From Arcobacteraceae bacterium (GTDB taxonomy: Bacteria > Campylobacterota > Campylobacteria > Campylobacterales > Arcobacteraceae), in assembly GCA_028687375.1 (NCBI GenBank), contig JAQUAG010000002.1:124001-188000 (forward strand): a stretch of 64,000 nucleotides of DNA, written 5' to 3'. A model generated the notes under the pieces. That model was given only the letters and a program-made list of their open reading frames with translations. It was not told where the DNA came from and did not search any database. Both the position numbers and the translations under genes were made by a program. Shown here one piece after another: positions 298-6,363 of this stretch; position 1 is the stretch's first letter, and every line of letters begins with the position of its first letter.

Positions 298-1998
298 TTA
301 AAACAGATAGTTGATACCAAATAGGTAAGTTCGTCCAGCAGATGGATATCCTATATGTACTTCATAAGCTTTATCCAATAGATTTTCTATTTCCGTATAA
401 AACTTCATATTTTTATATTTATATTCTATCTTGGAATTAGCTAAAAAATATCCTTGTAATACTTCTGTATTTGCACTATTATTAAAGCTATCACTTACAT
501 AGTATCCACCTAAATTGGCTTTAAAGTTTTGATACACAGCATAGATATCTGATTGAAATTTTTGTTTTGGTTTCGCAGGTAAATAAAGCCCAGTATCATC
601 ATTTTTAAATATCAGATAAAGGTAAGAAGCATCTATCTTAAAAATCTCATTTATTTTCCAATCAAGACTTGTTTCAAAACCTTTTCGTGTACTTGAAGTT
701 ACATTTTCATAACCATAAACACCATTTGCATCATATGAACCGCTTATTCCATCATCTATTTTGCTATAAAATATATTACCATTAAGATTAAAATCATCAT
801 TTATTTTAGAAGACAACCCTGCTTGATAATTTGTGGTTGATTCCATTTCTAAATTTGGATTACCTTTAACGGTACTACTTTCATAATATCTTTGTTTAAA
901 AGTTGGTGTTTTCGATGACTGAGTAATTTTAAAATTGTATTTTGTATCATTTAGATTATAACTCACGCCCAGTTCTGGATTTACCGAATTACCAAATGTA
1001 GAATGATTATTGAGTCTCATTCCTAAGTTGTACCCAAGATTGTTGTATTCAAATTGTTTCATTCCATACAAACCAATTAAATCTTCACTATGACTTCCTG
1101 AATTTGTAGCTTCTGCTGAACGATTTTCTCCATTTACACCAAGAACTGCTTTCCCAAAAATAGCCATATCCCCACTATATTTTAAGTCGCTTCCATAAGT
1201 AACTGTTTTTAAAAAAGTATCAAGATTTACATCTGGATTTGTATTCAAATCATCGTTTCTACTTGTGTATAATCTCCCTTCAAAACCATTATTTTTGAGC
1301 AACATTGATGTTCCAAATGATTCTTTTTCGTATCTTGCATTTGGAGTGGGACTAGTTATTTTTCCAGTAACTCCACCTTGGTCACTCAAATAATTTGAAG
1401 TTAGACTAAAATCATATTCTTTTGCTAGTAATGTATTAAAATCAAGTTTTGCAGAATTTATCTCACTATCACCATTCAGTCTATGACCATCTGTTTTATC
1501 ATGATTTACATCAAATGCCAAACCAAAACCATCAAAAGTTTTTCCAATATTTAAGCCAACTTTTTCAGTATTTAAAGAACCTTTTGCGATGTTGATTTTA
1601 TTTACATAAGATTTATTTGTTTTTTTTGAAGTGATGACTATCACCCCTCCACTTGTATTATCTCCATAAAGTGCAGCACCAGAACCTTTGATAATCTCTA
1701 TTTTTTCCAAATTTTCAGTTGATATTCCACCTAAACTCGCTGTTCCAGTTAAAGAATCAGTAAGTGGTCTTCCATCAAAAAGGACTAAAACTTCATTTGT
1801 AGTTGAACCTTGAAGACTAATAAAACTATCACTTGCTTTGATGCCAGGGAGTTTATTGAGTAAATCGACTAACATTTGAGTATTTAAACTTCGTATCTCT
1901 TTAGATGAAATAATCGTTGAACCATTATCTATTCCACTATCAGCATTAAGAAGTGTTGCTAAAAATAACGAAAGAAGAATTTTTTTATTTTTCGTCAA
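298..1998 (-). CDS. TonB-dependent outer membrane receptor (BtuB/CirA-like)
   Basis: A 566-residue outer membrane receptor. After a signal peptide (about residues 1-19) comes a plug domain with the usual landmarks: SSKEIRSLN, VLFDGRPLTD, and EIIKGSGAALYGDNTSGGVI near residues 100-120. A long beta-barrel region follows and ends with the aromatic C-terminus YLFGINYLF expected for Bam-dependent insertion. It is short for a TonB receptor, and I see no clear TonB box between the signal peptide and the plug. Its start overlaps the end of the DUF4198-like gene by 14 bp, so the two are translationally coupled. It belongs to the operon headed by the receptor at 2953-5139. The substrate is not readable from sequence; a metal chelate or corrinoid is likely from the family and the neighbours. 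Confidence 0.88.
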   Translation of the reverse strand: MTKNKKILLSLFLATLLNADSGIDNGSTIISSKEIRSLNTQMLVDLLNKLPGIKASDSFISLQGSTTNEVLVLFDGRPLTDSLTGTASLGGISTENLEKIEIIKGSGAALYGDNTSGGVIVITSKKTNKSYVNKINIAKGSLNTEKVGLNIGKTFDGFGLAFDVNHDKTDGHRLNGDSEINSAKLDFNTLLAKEYDFSLTSNYLSDQGGVTGKITSPTPNARYEKESFGTSMLLKNNGFEGRLYTSRNDDLNTNPDVNLDTFLKTVTYGSDLKYSGDMAIFGKAVLGVNGENRSAEATNSGSHSEDLIGLYGMKQFEYNNLGYNLGMRLNNHSTFGNSVNPELGVSYNLNDTKYNFKITQSSKTPTFKQRYYESSTVKGNPNLEMESTTNYQAGLSSKINDDFNLNGNIFYSKIDDGISGSYDANGVYGYENVTSSTRKGFETSLDWKINEIFKIDASYLYLIFKNDDTGLYLPAKPKQKFQSDIYAVYQNFKANLGGYYVSDSFNNSANTEVLQGYFLANSKIEYKYKNMKFYTEIENLLDKAYEVHIGYPSAGRTYLFGINYLF

Positions 1999-2941
1999 AC
2001 CAAATCTCCTTAGGCTCTTTTTTCTTTTTTCTTCGATAATAATAAATCCCCAATGAAAGCACCAAAGTAGTCCCTATAACTACATAAAAACCAGAAAGTT
2101 GCGATGAATACTCAAGTGGAGATGAGCTAAAAGTAAGTGGCATACTCATAGAATATTTGATTTTTGAGTATGGAGTTTCTAAATATTCTCCCGATTCATT
2201 CACATCATAAATTGCTTCAACAATCATCTTTTCAGAACTTTTTTTCCCTGTTGCTATTCCATCATAATTTGTTCTCGGAATTTCAAACGAGACTATTCCA
2301 TCTTTATCAGGCATCACTTCATTTACCCAACCAGTTTGCATAATAGCTTTCAGTGGTATATTTTTTTGTAAAGTACCTTTATAATAAATCTTAAATTGAG
2401 CGATATCTCCTGAATATAAACAACAATTTATTTGATGTTTTTTAATTGGTTTAAGCATCACAATTTCAAAATCAAGTTCTTTAAAAGGTGGTTTGTCATA
2501 ATAAGAACCAACAGTTTTTCCACGAATCTCTTTTACAATAGATTCTTTGATATCTGCATCTTTATTATAAATTCGTGTTGTTGTAGCATCAACTTTTAAG
2601 ATACCATTTTCAATATTTCTTTTTGTAAAAAATATATGATAGCTCCCTTTTTGTGGTGTTGCAACTTCAATAGAATCTTTTAAAATTTTCCCTTTTAAAA
2701 TAATGTCATCAAAATCTCTCACCCAAGCTTCTGAACCATTAATATCGTTTAATTGTTTTGATTTTTTAAAAGTACCATTTTTTACAGTAAGTTCTTTATA
2801 TCCTGCTTTTTTTTCACTTACACTAGTGCAACAACTAGCCTCACCCTCTTTCTTTTCTTCTAGCCATATTGAAGCATTTAAAAGAATTGGTAATAAAAGC
2901 ACTGTAAAAACAGTACTTTTAATTATATCTATGTATTTCAT
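1985..2941 (-). CDS. periplasmic DUF4198-like protein with C-terminal membrane anchor
   Basis: A 318-residue protein with an N-terminal signal sequence or anchor (about 7-24), an extracytoplasmic body, one transmembrane helix near residues 284-302 and a short, very basic cytoplasmic tail (YYRRKKKKEPKE). The body ends in an Ig-like segment with the pattern GWVNEVMPDKDGIVSFEIPR, which resembles the DUF4198 / NikL-like periplasmic components found beside nickel, cobalt and other metal transporters. Two cysteine pairs (EASCCTS near 37 and INCCLYS near 172) could bind a soft metal. It lies between two TonB-receptor genes in the same operon, which supports a role in passing on or sensing the imported substrate. 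The family assignment is tentative, and the metal is inferred from cysteine content and context only. Confidence 0.65.
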   Translation of the reverse strand: MKYIDIIKSTVFTVLLLPILLNASIWLEEKKEGEASCCTSVSEKKAGYKELTVKNGTFKKSKQLNDINGSEAWVRDFDDIILKGKILKDSIEVATPQKGSYHIFFTKRNIENGILKVDATTTRIYNKDADIKESIVKEIRGKTVGSYYDKPPFKELDFEIVMLKPIKKHQINCCLYSGDIAQFKIYYKGTLQKNIPLKAIMQTGWVNEVMPDKDGIVSFEIPRTNYDGIATGKKSSEKMIVEAIYDVNESGEYLETPYSKIKYSMSMPLTFSSSPLEYSSQLSGFYVVIGTTLVLSLGIYYYRRKKKKEPKEIWFDEK

Positions 2942-2952
2942 TGCAAAGCCAA

Positions 2953-5139
2953 TTAAAATTTAAATGCTAACTCGGCATAGAATGTTCTACCTGGTATTAA
3001 ACCTGATTGATAATATTCTGCATCAAGAAGATTATTAACAGAAAGAGATGCTTTTAACCAATTTTGTATTTGATAGGCAACTTTTGTATCAACTGTAAAA
3101 TGTGATTCGTAGCTACCTGGAACATCTTTTATAATATCAGAATTGTCATCTTTTGTTGTGAGACTATCAACATATTTTCCAACTATAGAAGTGTCTAATT
3201 TACCACTATTAAAATTCATTCCAACATTAAATTGTTTTTCAGGTGTATATGTAAGTTTTTTTCCAACCAATAATGGATTTGTGATATTTTCTGTAATTTC
3301 TGATTTATTGTAAGTATAGTTTCCAAAAAATTTAAATTTTTCATTTATTTTTTGAGCAATTTCAAATTCTATACCTTTAATTTCAGCTTTTCCAGCATTT
3401 CTTTTTTCATTCAATGTTGTGCTAACTGAAGTTGAATACATTAAATCAGTTAAATAATTTTCATAATAAGTTGATTTAATAAAAGTATTAGTGTCAAATG
3501 TATGTTCAAAACCAACTTCCCATGATGTTGTCGATTCTGGTTTTAAACCTGGGGCAGCTTTGTATAATAATGTACCAGAATACCAATCAGAATATAAATC
3601 ACTTAAACTTGGTGCTCTAAATGCTTGTCCTACAGATGTTCTGAATGTTGTATTTTTAGATTGCACATAAACTAATGAGGCTTTTGGACTAAATTGTGAT
3701 TCTTTTCTTGTATCATAATTTGTGATATTAGAAGTGGCAATATCATTAATCAATCCATCAGTTTCCCAAGTATCATATCTTCCACCTGCATATGCTACTA
3801 ATTTATCAGTTATATCGATAGTATCTTGAATAAAAATAGCTTTTGTTGTACTTTGTCCATTTGAATCATATGTTAAAGTTGATTTACTACTTTCATCCGT
3901 CCAGTTAGTAAGTGTATTTATTGTTTTATGCAATTCATTTTTATTTATATCTAATCCAGCAACAATAAAATGTTGTTCACCTAAAGGAAAACTTAATTGT
4001 ACCATTCCATATGTTTTTTGATTTGGAATATCTGTATATTTACCTTGACCACTAGTTGATGTTGAACCAGTTGAAATATACCAGTAATCAAAATCTGTGT
4101 AACCCACATCAACTTTTAATGCTAAATCATTTGTTATTTTATTCTCATAACCAACTGTATATTTTGATGCTTCTTCTCCATTTGGACCAAATAAAAAATT
4201 CGCTTCACTAATCGCTGATTTAGATGTCGTATCTAATTGTCCAGTTCCACTATAGAATGGATTTCCAGATGTATCCTTTAAATATGTATTAAAACTATTA
4301 AATTCTGTTTCATGCTCATGATGAGAATAACCAATATTAATATTTTGATTATCATCTATGTTGTAATTTAATTTAGTTCCAATATTATCTTGATACCAAG
4401 ATTTTTTTCCTTTATCACCGATAATATATACAGTTTTATCAGTGCTATCTGTAGTTTTAATTGCTCCAGTTACAGCAATACCACCAGTTCCAGTTGTAGG
4501 GGTTTTAATAACTAAATTTTGGATATACCCATCACTTTCTTTTTTATCATAATTTAATGAAATACCTAAATCTTGAGTAATTTTATCTCTATATGATAAA
4601 GATAAATTTTTGTAATTGTTACTCCCATAACCCGTTTTAATATTAAATTCTCGTTCTGTTGGTTTTTTTGTAATTACATTAATTACTCCACCCATAGCAT
4701 TTCCACCATAAAGAGAAGAAAATGGACCTTTGACAACCTCAATCTTTTCAATTTCATCAACTGGAATATTTGACCAATTAACACCACCAGAAAATGCATT
4801 GTTTAATGCTATACCATCAACCAATACAGCTGTTCTATAATATTGTGGTATTCCCCTTAAAGTTACTGAATTACTCCAACTACTTGGGGTGCCATCATCA
4901 TCAGAACGAACATTCACGCCAGATACATCTTGAATTGCTTGGTCAGCTCTTTGTACAGATTTTGAATTTATATCCTTTGCTGTTACAATAGATACACTTG
5001 CTGGGGATTCTGAAGTTGCTTGTTCTGTTTTTGTTGCAGTAACTGACATTTCTCCTAAATCAACCACTTCATCAGCATTTGCCATACCACAAACAGCGAT
5101 AGCAACCAAAGATAATTTTATACTTTTCATACTCTTCAT
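2953..5139 (-). CDS. TonB-dependent outer membrane receptor
   Basis: A 728-residue TonB-dependent receptor and the first gene of the minus-strand operon. It has a signal peptide (about 1-22, ending GMANA), a TonB-box-like DLGEMSVTAT at about 27-36, a plug with VDGIALNNAF and VVKGPFSSLYGGNAMGGVIN, and a barrel ending FYAELAFKF. The barrel has conserved receptor landmarks near the C-terminus (ASLSVNNLLDAEYY). The start at 5139 is preceded by a good AAGGAG at 5150-5155; an in-frame ATG nine bases further in (5130) is less well placed. The approximately 310-bp leader holds an unusual set of helices (see 5166-5288), so expression is probably controlled at the RNA level. The substrate is unknown; the neighbourhood (DUF4198, NosL, DsrE) suggests a metal or metal complex. 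Confidence 0.9.
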   Translation of the reverse strand: MKSMKSIKLSLVAIAVCGMANADEVVDLGEMSVTATKTEQATSESPASVSIVTAKDINSKSVQRADQAIQDVSGVNVRSDDDGTPSSWSNSVTLRGIPQYYRTAVLVDGIALNNAFSGGVNWSNIPVDEIEKIEVVKGPFSSLYGGNAMGGVINVITKKPTEREFNIKTGYGSNNYKNLSLSYRDKITQDLGISLNYDKKESDGYIQNLVIKTPTTGTGGIAVTGAIKTTDSTDKTVYIIGDKGKKSWYQDNIGTKLNYNIDDNQNINIGYSHHEHETEFNSFNTYLKDTSGNPFYSGTGQLDTTSKSAISEANFLFGPNGEEASKYTVGYENKITNDLALKVDVGYTDFDYWYISTGSTSTSGQGKYTDIPNQKTYGMVQLSFPLGEQHFIVAGLDINKNELHKTINTLTNWTDESSKSTLTYDSNGQSTTKAIFIQDTIDITDKLVAYAGGRYDTWETDGLINDIATSNITNYDTRKESQFSPKASLVYVQSKNTTFRTSVGQAFRAPSLSDLYSDWYSGTLLYKAAPGLKPESTTSWEVGFEHTFDTNTFIKSTYYENYLTDLMYSTSVSTTLNEKRNAGKAEIKGIEFEIAQKINEKFKFFGNYTYNKSEITENITNPLLVGKKLTYTPEKQFNVGMNFNSGKLDTSIVGKYVDSLTTKDDNSDIIKDVPGSYESHFTVDTKVAYQIQNWLKASLSVNNLLDAEYYQSGLIPGRTFYAELAFKF

Positions 5140-5165
5140 ATTTTATTTTCTCCTTAAATTTAAGA

Positions 5166-5288
5166 AGACACCAATCGTTTAATATCACTAAAGGAACAAT
5201 TAACTATAATAAAAAACGGTGTCTATGCACCTGATCCCTTGCTAACGGTCGCCAAACTTCAGGCAAGGGCTCGTAAAATATTTCACGA
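5166..5288 (-). promoter_or_regulatory. structured 5' leader of the TonB-receptor operon, candidate riboswitch
   Basis: This fills most of the 315-bp gap between the TonB operon and the divergent dsrE-like gene. On the minus (RNA) strand there is a palindrome TCGTGAAATATTTTACGA (5288-5271), then a stem CCCTTGC (5269-5263) with GCAAGGG (5242-5236). Its loop begins CCTGA (5263-5259), which can pair with TCAGG (5234-5230) just 3' of the stem, so an H-type pseudoknot is possible. A further stem pairs AGACACC (5224-5218) with GGTGTCT (5172-5166), ending shortly before the Shine-Dalgarno. GGTG (5231-5228) can instead pair with CACC (5221-5218), which competes with both the pseudoknot and the last stem. 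I could not match it to the cobalamin, TPP, SAM, FMN or fluoride consensus. The pairings are seen; the regulatory role is inferred. Confidence 0.5.
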
Positions 5289-5454
5289 ATAAAATCAGAT
5301 TTTTAATAATAGTATGTAAGTGTTAATTAAGTGTTAAATTTGGATACAAAAAGTAATCAATTACTCATCCCAAAATTATAAGCTTATTTCAAAATGCAAT
5401 TTAAAGTGACATTTGAATAAAATTCACTCAATCTAAAAAAAAGGAGATAACCAA

Positions 5455-5862
5455 ATGAAAAATTTGATTAAAATATGTTTTGTTGTTGCAGCACTTTCTG
5501 TTGCATCGTATGCTGCTGTGAAGGATGCATTATTTGCAAATGTCACTACAAATGAGGCTCATAGAGCAAATATGGCTATTAAAATGCCATTGATGATGAA
5601 AAAGATGGGTCATCCTGTGACTATTTATCTTAATGATAAAGGAGTTTATGTGGCTTCAAAGAATGCAAATCAAGAGTTACCTGAAGCACAAAAACATCTT
5701 GCTGAATTGATTAAATTGGGTGGGAAAGTTTTAGTGTGTCCGTTTTGTTTAAAACATTACAATATTGATCCAAAAGATTTAATGGATGGTGTTGAGATTT
5801 CTGATCCAAAAAAAGTTGAAGCTACTCTATTTGGTAAAAATGTACAAACTATAAGCTGGTAA
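5455..5862 (+). CDS. periplasmic DsrE/F-like protein
   Basis: A 135-residue protein with a signal peptide (about 1-20, ending ASYA) and a DsrE/DsrF-like alpha/beta fold: a helix-rich N-terminus, the strand PVTIYLNDKGVYVAS, and a late CPFCLKHY motif (C95, C98) followed by LMDGVEISDPKK. DsrE-like proteins carry persulfide or take part in thiol chemistry; the periplasmic location and CxxC make redox, sulfur or metal binding plausible here. Translation starts at an ATG behind AAAAAAAGGAGA. The NosL-like gene follows after 6 bp, so both are one transcription unit, divergent from the TonB operon. The exact substrate is unknown. Confidence 0.75.
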   Translation: MKNLIKICFVVAALSVASYAAVKDALFANVTTNEAHRANMAIKMPLMMKKMGHPVTIYLNDKGVYVASKNANQELPEAQKHLAELIKLGGKVLVCPFCLKHYNIDPKDLMDGVEISDPKKVEATLFGKNVQTISW

Positions 5863-5868
5863 AAGAGA

Positions 5869-6363
5869 GTGAGAAAGTTATTATTTCTATTCTTTCTCCT
5901 ATTGATTTCAGTAGATGCTCATGAGGGGATGTTTCAGAGTGTCGAAGAAAACAAAGCTACCATTTTACAAGAGGGGAAAAACAAGTCAGATTGCCCCGCT
6001 TGTGGGATGAACCTTTTTCAATACTACAAAACCACTCATGCTGTCAAATTCAAAGATGGAACCCATAGACAGTATTGCTCTATCTTTTGTATCATTGATG
6101 AAACTAAAAATGGATTTTTAAAAGATAAAAAACATCTTATTGATACAATTTTGGTTGTTGATGTCGCTACACTTAAGTATATCGATGTCAAAAAAGCTTT
6201 TTATGTTGTAGATAGTAAAAAACCACCAACGATGAGTGTGATAAGTACTTATGCTTTTGGTTCTAAAAAAGATGCTCAAAAGTTTCAAAAACAAAATGGT
6301 GGAAAAATCACCAATTACGATACAGCTTATAAACTCACTGCAAAATATATTTCAGAATATTAA
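5869..6363 (+). CDS. NosL-family copper-binding protein
   Basis: A 164-residue secreted protein (signal peptide about 1-17) with the NosL core DCPACGMNLFQYYKTTHAV. C42-x2-C45-G-M is the typical copper(I)-binding signature, and a second cysteine pair follows in QYCSIFC (C70, C74). NosL-type proteins deliver or bind copper, best known for nitrous oxide reductase; related proteins occur next to other copper-handling genes. I chose the GTG at 5869, six bases after the dsrE-like stop; purines just upstream (AAAAGAGA) serve as ribosome-binding site. The signal sequence here ends at DA rather than at a lipobox cysteine, unlike classical lipoprotein NosL. No nosZ is in the window, so a general periplasmic copper role is possible. 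Confidence 0.85.
   Translation: MRKLLFLFFLLLISVDAHEGMFQSVEENKATILQEGKNKSDCPACGMNLFQYYKTTHAVKFKDGTHRQYCSIFCIIDETKNGFLKDKKHLIDTILVVDVATLKYIDVKKAFYVVDSKKPPTMSVISTYAFGSKKDAQKFQKQNGGKITNYDTAYKLTAKYISEY

Follow-up and report, generated by a model that had tools for sequence, protein, structure and literature searches.

A conserved structured leader of TonB-receptor operons in Campylobacterota and its predicted countertranscript

The stretch of 64,000 nucleotides analysed here, referred to as the window, contains a TonB-receptor operon whose mRNA carries a 5' leader (5140..5303, minus strand) that is conserved in locus L002 and 19 further homologues. Comparison of these 20 homologous leaders was conclusive and settles, on comparative sequence grounds, that the leader is a real, conserved and structured regulatory RNA. 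As to its mode of action, we consider it highly probable that a cis-encoded countertranscript gates TonB operons which are switched on by a two-component system. The best reading of the comparative evidence is a predicted antisense RNA of about 55-80 nt, encoded in cis on the opposite strand of the leader.

The leader and its helices

The whole element extended from about 5303 to 5137 on the minus strand of the window, with promoter and operator sequences reaching up to 5337. It lies in the region named in a preliminary description of this DNA, but is longer than was proposed there. A BLAST search with the leader revealed the second copy, L002, which belongs to another species of the same genus, is 86% identical across the leader region and stands 5' of a TonB receptor only 22% identical to that of the window. 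Covariance models were built stepwise (R1 from two sequences, R2 from four and R3 from ten) and recovered leaders in additional genomes. The copies used, including the window, numbered 21: nine from the family of the window (Arcobacteraceae) and 12 from the family containing Sulfurimonas. Conservation of a structured RNA before TonB operons, as had been anticipated, was observed in 20 of the 21 leaders, which directly preceded a TonB receptor. These receptors formed several groups, with between-group identities down to 21%. The remaining leader (L090/L057) stood before a membrane cytochrome operon; in L090 (3792-7246), the sole copy without a TonB receptor, the leader was followed by genes for two membrane cytochrome c proteins and a thioredoxin-like protein.

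In the alignment of the 21 leaders, 88% of the cells paired and 20 of 21 pairs were changed on both sides. The covariation score was 0.589, against 0.231 after shuffling and at most 0.148 with slid partners; this score is partly built in, since the sequences had been aligned to fit the model, and the shuffle tests overstate significance since the leaders are related sequences. For helix P3, covariation was already plain among four sequences aligned by MAFFT without fitting to the model. The covariation on which the preliminary description had staked its structured RNA was thereby recovered in homologous leaders, being strong in both P3 and P4. Taken alone, the fold energy of the window leader was weak evidence for a structured RNA: the 151-nt sequence had a folding energy of -34.1 kcal/mol and a z of -2.0, a value reached by 4 of 200 shuffles, and this single-sequence fold was insufficient to settle the structure because it was only moderately better than the shuffles.

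P3 (5236..5269, minus strand) is the hairpin predicted to be the kissing target. Its stem, already recognised earlier as CCCTTGC (5269-5263) paired with GCAAGGG (5242-5236), was present on the minus strand and covaried strongly, all 11 pairs of its consensus stem being changed on both sides. Its cap, GU[UUGGCG]AC, is located at 5257-5248. Among the 21 leaders, the cap GUUUGGCGAC was nearly invariant and the stem sequence was free to vary; 20 of them kept the cap complete or almost complete, and it was lost in L002/L080.

The second helix of the preliminary description, AGACACC (5224-5218) with GGTGTCT (5172-5166) near the Shine-Dalgarno, also stood up well. It constitutes P4 (5166..5224, minus strand), a long AT-rich hairpin just 5' of the ribosome-binding site, and covaried strongly (both-sided changes in six of six pairs). 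The 3' strand of P4 is found 11 nt 5' of the Shine-Dalgarno AAGGAG (5155-5150), which can itself be hidden by hairpin P5, CTTCTTAAATTTAAGGAG (5150..5167, minus strand). P5 occurred in variant forms in L016 and L017 and was weak in other leaders; 79% of its cells paired. The competing helices that had been proposed around the ribosome-binding site were accordingly found there. Further upstream, a three-way junction (5229..5300, minus strand) was displayed by the window and L002 only, with the same fold in both: P1, made of ATCTGAT (5300-5294) and ATCAGGT (5235-5229), is the closing helix around P2 (about 5289-5270) and P3. P1 and P2 were not evident in L016/L017. A pseudoknot had also been suggested between loop bases CCTGA of P3 and TCAGG just outside it, but this pairing was not conserved and the closest homologue, L002, had no matching loop; in the window, TCAGG belongs to the 3' strand of P1, paired with ATCTGAT once the transcript starts near 5303.

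Searches beyond these copies were less productive. In a phylum-wide sample, the sole match outside the two families was L100, without leader architecture; this match, together with L064, L071, L075, L077 and L078, which also lacked that architecture, was judged to be due to chance. The pattern CCCTTGC-N-GCAAGGGAT returned, in 399 genomes, only four matches beyond the window and L002, all judged chance, and a pattern scan of genome contigs gave mostly chance matches and three real ones (L038, L046 and L054). Distant blastn comparison with phages and plasmids yielded no relevant match. With Rfam 15, nothing reached the gathering threshold in the 64-kb window and nothing meaningful was obtained for the leader at relaxed thresholds; the earlier statement that the element matches no known class, riboswitches in particular, therefore holds for the Rfam covariance models. 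Several other candidates were discarded for the window leader. Leader-peptide attenuation was rejected as there is no ATG 5' of the receptor start, and the GGCGAC repeats, read as a leader peptide (VWRL...WRL), lack a start codon. No terminator was found that could serve as an intrinsic attenuator, and sigma54 and CsrA sites were dismissed by inspection for wrong spacing or motif.

Putative opposite-strand promoter and predicted antisense RNA

Between its two strands, P4 contains a conserved block that reads, on the opposite strand, as a sigma70 -10 box. In the window this is TATAAT (5205..5210, plus strand), at an offset conserved in the 21 homologues; every homologue kept such a box, and in nearly every case a G followed it after 6-7 nt. 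In most copies the hexamer occupied positions -12 to -7 relative to the first G of GGUG, being one base further off in the window, L002 and L082, and three bases in L098. The mean matrix score over the 21 copies was 1.59 bits, with shifted copies counting against it, compared to an average of -1.34 for 1000 best-offset shuffles (never above 0.04) and to 0.36 for the top-scoring hexamer on the sense strand of this block. Variants encountered among the copies (TATAAT, TAAAAT, TACAAT, TAGAAT, TATGAT and TATCAT) are, by their sequence, the substitutions expected of a -10 box. No -35 box accompanied this putative antisense promoter; promoters of Campylobacterota are generally devoid of one. An opposite-strand promoter, such as a countertranscript requires, was in this way recognised in the 21 homologues at the sequence level.

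The predicted antisense RNA of the window (5218..5275, plus strand) would start at G 5218 and end between about 5275 and 5300. From the predicted +1 G onwards, nearly all copies displayed a GGUG-N5-8-YRCC hairpin and then the P3 complement, whose loop is CGCCAA. In the window, these correspond to the 5' hairpin H1, GGUG-UCUAUG-CACC (5218..5231, plus strand), and to hairpin H2, or P3' (5236..5269, plus strand). The antisense 5' end is identical in sequence to the 3' strand of P4; this identity and the two-sided conservation are directly apparent from the sequences. No clear terminator marked the 3' end in the window, and among the relatives T-runs followed H2 only in L083, L084, L092 and L095. 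In the predicted folds, the complementary loops are UUGGCG on the mRNA and CGCCAA on the antisense RNA, and they include the YUNR U-turn that, when present in one loop, is typical of loop-loop-initiated antisense binding (PMC4485353).

The strand on which each helix folds was examined through its wobble pairs, since a G.U pair becomes an A.C mismatch when the complementary strand is read. Over the 21 copies, 83 of the 84 cells of H1 paired when read as antisense and 68 of 84 when read as sense. The non-Watson-Crick cells of P3 were G.U for 16 on the antisense strand and for 7 on the sense strand, which is suggestive, not decisive, if considered alone. P4 extends in part beyond the antisense RNA and showed, on the sense strand, six G.U versus two A.C. 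Because of this asymmetry, P3 and H1 appear to behave as parts of the antisense RNA and P4 as part of the mRNA. The same figures for H1 bear on the alternative GGTG/CACC pairing that had been put forward as excluding both main helices: the pairing itself is possible, but it corresponds to the 5' hairpin of the predicted antisense RNA.

These results also bear on the initial interpretation of the element as a riboswitch. A new riboswitch class would imply that P3 and its constant loop bind the imported substrate or a metal, thereby shifting P4 versus the upstream GGTG/CACC hairpin and controlling translation, and it would be in keeping with a 5' UTR before uptake operons, competing helices, strong covariation and the absence of an Rfam match. 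Yet a metabolite aptamer is expected to keep an internal sequence core, and no conserved ligand-binding core was found on the sense strand of the 21 leaders. Conservation consisted of one 10-nt hairpin cap, without conserved junction or internal loop, plus segments that double as antisense promoter and start. Moreover, many relatives had the GGTG/CACC hairpin disrupted on the sense strand and intact on the antisense strand, the antisense -10 box would be left unexplained, and the cap also turned up upstream of replication genes and within a toxin-like ORF, for which a common ligand is unlikely. Given a P3 stem that is free to change, next to a constant UUGGCG loop and a constant opposite-strand -10 box and start site, the riboswitch interpretation is probably wrong, and we regard a new class as quite unlikely.

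Probable sense promoter and proposed circuit

A probable -10 region of the sense promoter (5309..5316, minus strand) would place the transcription start at about 5301-5304. The promoter TTAACA-17-TACTAT of the window was not above chance alone; ATACT/TACTAT-like boxes were present at the sense promoter in several homologues. The 11-bp direct repeat TTAACA-N5-TTAACA (5321..5337, minus strand) is a probable operator of the OmpR/PhoB type; each of the 21 leaders agrees with it at 11 or 12 of the 12 positions, where 8.3 were expected by shuffling. Genes for OmpR-type response regulators and/or kinases adjoined the receptor in L085, L086 and L087, and the activator of the leader promoter is likely to be an OmpR/PhoB-type response regulator. 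The conserved direct repeats and promoter-like blocks could also be read as a regulatory region acting at the DNA level only, made of operators and promoters among which the inverted repeats would be incidental. The stems, however, changed freely with their pairing kept, which an operator would not require, and such an explanation seems extremely unlikely.

In the countertranscript model, an OmpR-type response regulator would turn on the sense promoter via the TTAACA-N5-TTAACA repeats, and the opposite-strand promoter inside P4 would produce a short pppGGUG RNA with the two hairpins for which there is comparative support. We infer kissing, P4 displacement and repression as the subsequent events. 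By analogy with plasmid systems that have the same loop, the antisense CGCCAA loop would kiss the UUGGCG U-turn loop of P3. As follows from complementarity, the antisense 5' end would pair with GACACC and displace P4, since it repeats the sequence of that helix's 3' strand. Loss of P4 might then leave the Shine-Dalgarno hidden or expression otherwise stopped, and the operon may be expressed only when mRNA outnumbers antisense RNA. Predictions of Shine-Dalgarno accessibility with the antisense RNA bound were mixed: accessibility fell in 9, rose in 5 and barely changed in 7 of the 21 copies; it fell in most copies from the window family and not in most copies from the Sulfurimonas family.

A particular arrangement was recorded in L091 (3278-5911), where two tandem TonB receptors each have their own leader. 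The first leader (L091a) has lost the antisense 5' hairpin and has a damaged P3 stem, and the second (L091b) is intact, so control in trans is possible at this locus.

Related RNAs, mobile elements and operon context

The predicted RNA shares several traits with known countertranscripts. CopA/CopT of IncFII plasmids (RF00042) likewise displays two hairpins, the second with loop CGCCAA, and complementarity to the leader 5' of the controlled gene. In contrast to CopA, the TonB RNA would control a chromosomal TonB operon and not plasmid replication, its stems are shorter, and the sense promoter of the leader carries a two-component-type operator. The window RNA did not match the Rfam CopA model, and the antisense RNA of mobile-element relative L063 matched it below the gathering threshold (E 0.016, 24.6 bits versus 60). 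Similarly, the predicted antisense RNA of L086 matched the streptococcal RNA Spy779816 (RF02589) below gathering (E 0.031), both having the hairpin loop AGUCGCCAAACU; CGCCAA-type loops are common to these two weak matches. Most likely, the predicted RNA resembles a CopA-type countertranscript in its working, yet is not a member of the Rfam CopA family.

The TonB leaders have the same target loop, 5'-UUGGCG-3', as the Inc RNA (RNAI) system of ColIb-P9 and I-complex plasmids; according to the title of reference 19 in PMC10724649, the antisense Inc RNA of ColIb-P9 binds the target loop 5'-rUUGGCG-3'. Antisense binding competes there with a leader structure needed for translation, as is proposed here, but neither a leader peptide nor a conserved pseudoknot partner (CGCC) was found in the TonB leaders. 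Countertranscripts of pT181, pIP501 and pMV158 likewise pair with the leader near the Rep start, and in pMV158 the 5' tail of the countertranscript is what matters; in contrast to these three, no intrinsic terminator or attenuator was detected in the TonB leader. Cis-antisense RNAs acting on a TonB-receptor operon, as in the present proposal, are exemplified by RNA-alpha and RNA-beta of the iron-transport operon of Vibrio anguillarum plasmid pJM1. They differ from the RNA predicted here in their length of several hundred nt, in their location at another place in the operon and in lacking a kissing-hairpin design.

Intergenic GTTTGGCGAC sites in five genomes were mostly located in hairpins. UUGGCG hairpins stood, in both orientations, 44-126 nt before genes of integrated or mobile elements (L062, L074, L109, L114, L063 and L101), a set composed of several intergenic cap sites and three further model matches. 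Four of these genes contained replication domains: Phage_rep_org_N twice, Lin1244_N, and an inovirus-like Phage_GPA/G2P. The hairpins, which had no Rfam match above gathering, are probably copy-control antisense RNAs. Antisense RNA control is common for replication genes of mobile elements and for small toxin genes. A 24-codon ORF 5' of kdsA was noticed in L072 and L076 (about 1440-1560); it reads MKKFHLKLTFIVWRLKVNFELKGI in L072 and is palindromic around the UUGGCG cap. With its opposite-strand TATAAT and two hairpins, this locus resembles a type I toxin-antitoxin pair and might be related to Helicobacter AapA/IsoA.

A constant loop on a variable stem, found before several unrelated genes, might also point to a host RNA-binding protein that reads the UUGGCG cap in unrelated transcripts, in the manner of an iron-responsive element. 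Such a protein-binding hairpin would leave the antisense promoter, H1 and the strand asymmetry unexplained, and in mobile elements the cap points either way with respect to the replication gene; we find this very unlikely. Returning to the countertranscript, it is conceivable, if rather doubtful, that a plasmid copy-control circuit, a kissing countertranscript with UUGGCG/CGCCAA loops, was domesticated in Campylobacterota and travels as a cassette with an OmpR-type operator, placed before many unrelated TonB receptors. Cross-talk in trans among the antisense RNAs, linking nutrient uptake with mobile elements, might occur because nearly all of the leader copies have their loops in common with the replication leaders of mobile elements and the toxin-like gene.

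Literature searches on the motif, on TonB leaders in Sulfurimonas and Arcobacter, and on DccR boxes returned nothing relevant, and no paper was found linking countertranscript-type control to TonB operons in Campylobacterota; this regulatory RNA arrangement is apparently new for these bacteria. Receptors of the outer membrane are expensive for the cell and give phages and bacteriocins a way in. If the proposal is true, a copy-control-style antisense RNA would set a sharp threshold atop the two-component switch, and plasmid RNA logic would prove reusable for chromosomal genes. The signature, a GU-UUGGCG-AC cap together with an opposite-strand -10 box, can be searched for to detect more such RNAs.

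The operon behind the leader starts with the TonB-dependent receptor (2953..5139, minus strand; Pfam Plug 1.3e-26, TonB_dep_Rec_b-barrel 6.1e-51), followed by a gene for a secreted or membrane-anchored protein without Pfam or NCBIfam match (1985..2941, minus strand) and by a second TonB-dependent receptor (298..1998, minus strand; Plug 1.6e-17). The operon genes past the window edge (L099, 5589-9259) code for a NapH-like 4Fe-4S protein, for a double-cubane-cluster reductase scoring 328.3 bits with NF040772 (cut-off 350), for the ATPase that activates this reductase and for a membrane protein of the DsbD_2 type. In several relatives, ExbB, ExbD-like and TonB-like genes were added to the operon. 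On the other side of the leader, the window contains a divergent gene pair (5455-6363) coding for a DsrE-like secreted protein and a NosL-domain protein, which suggests copper or sulfur chemistry near the operon.
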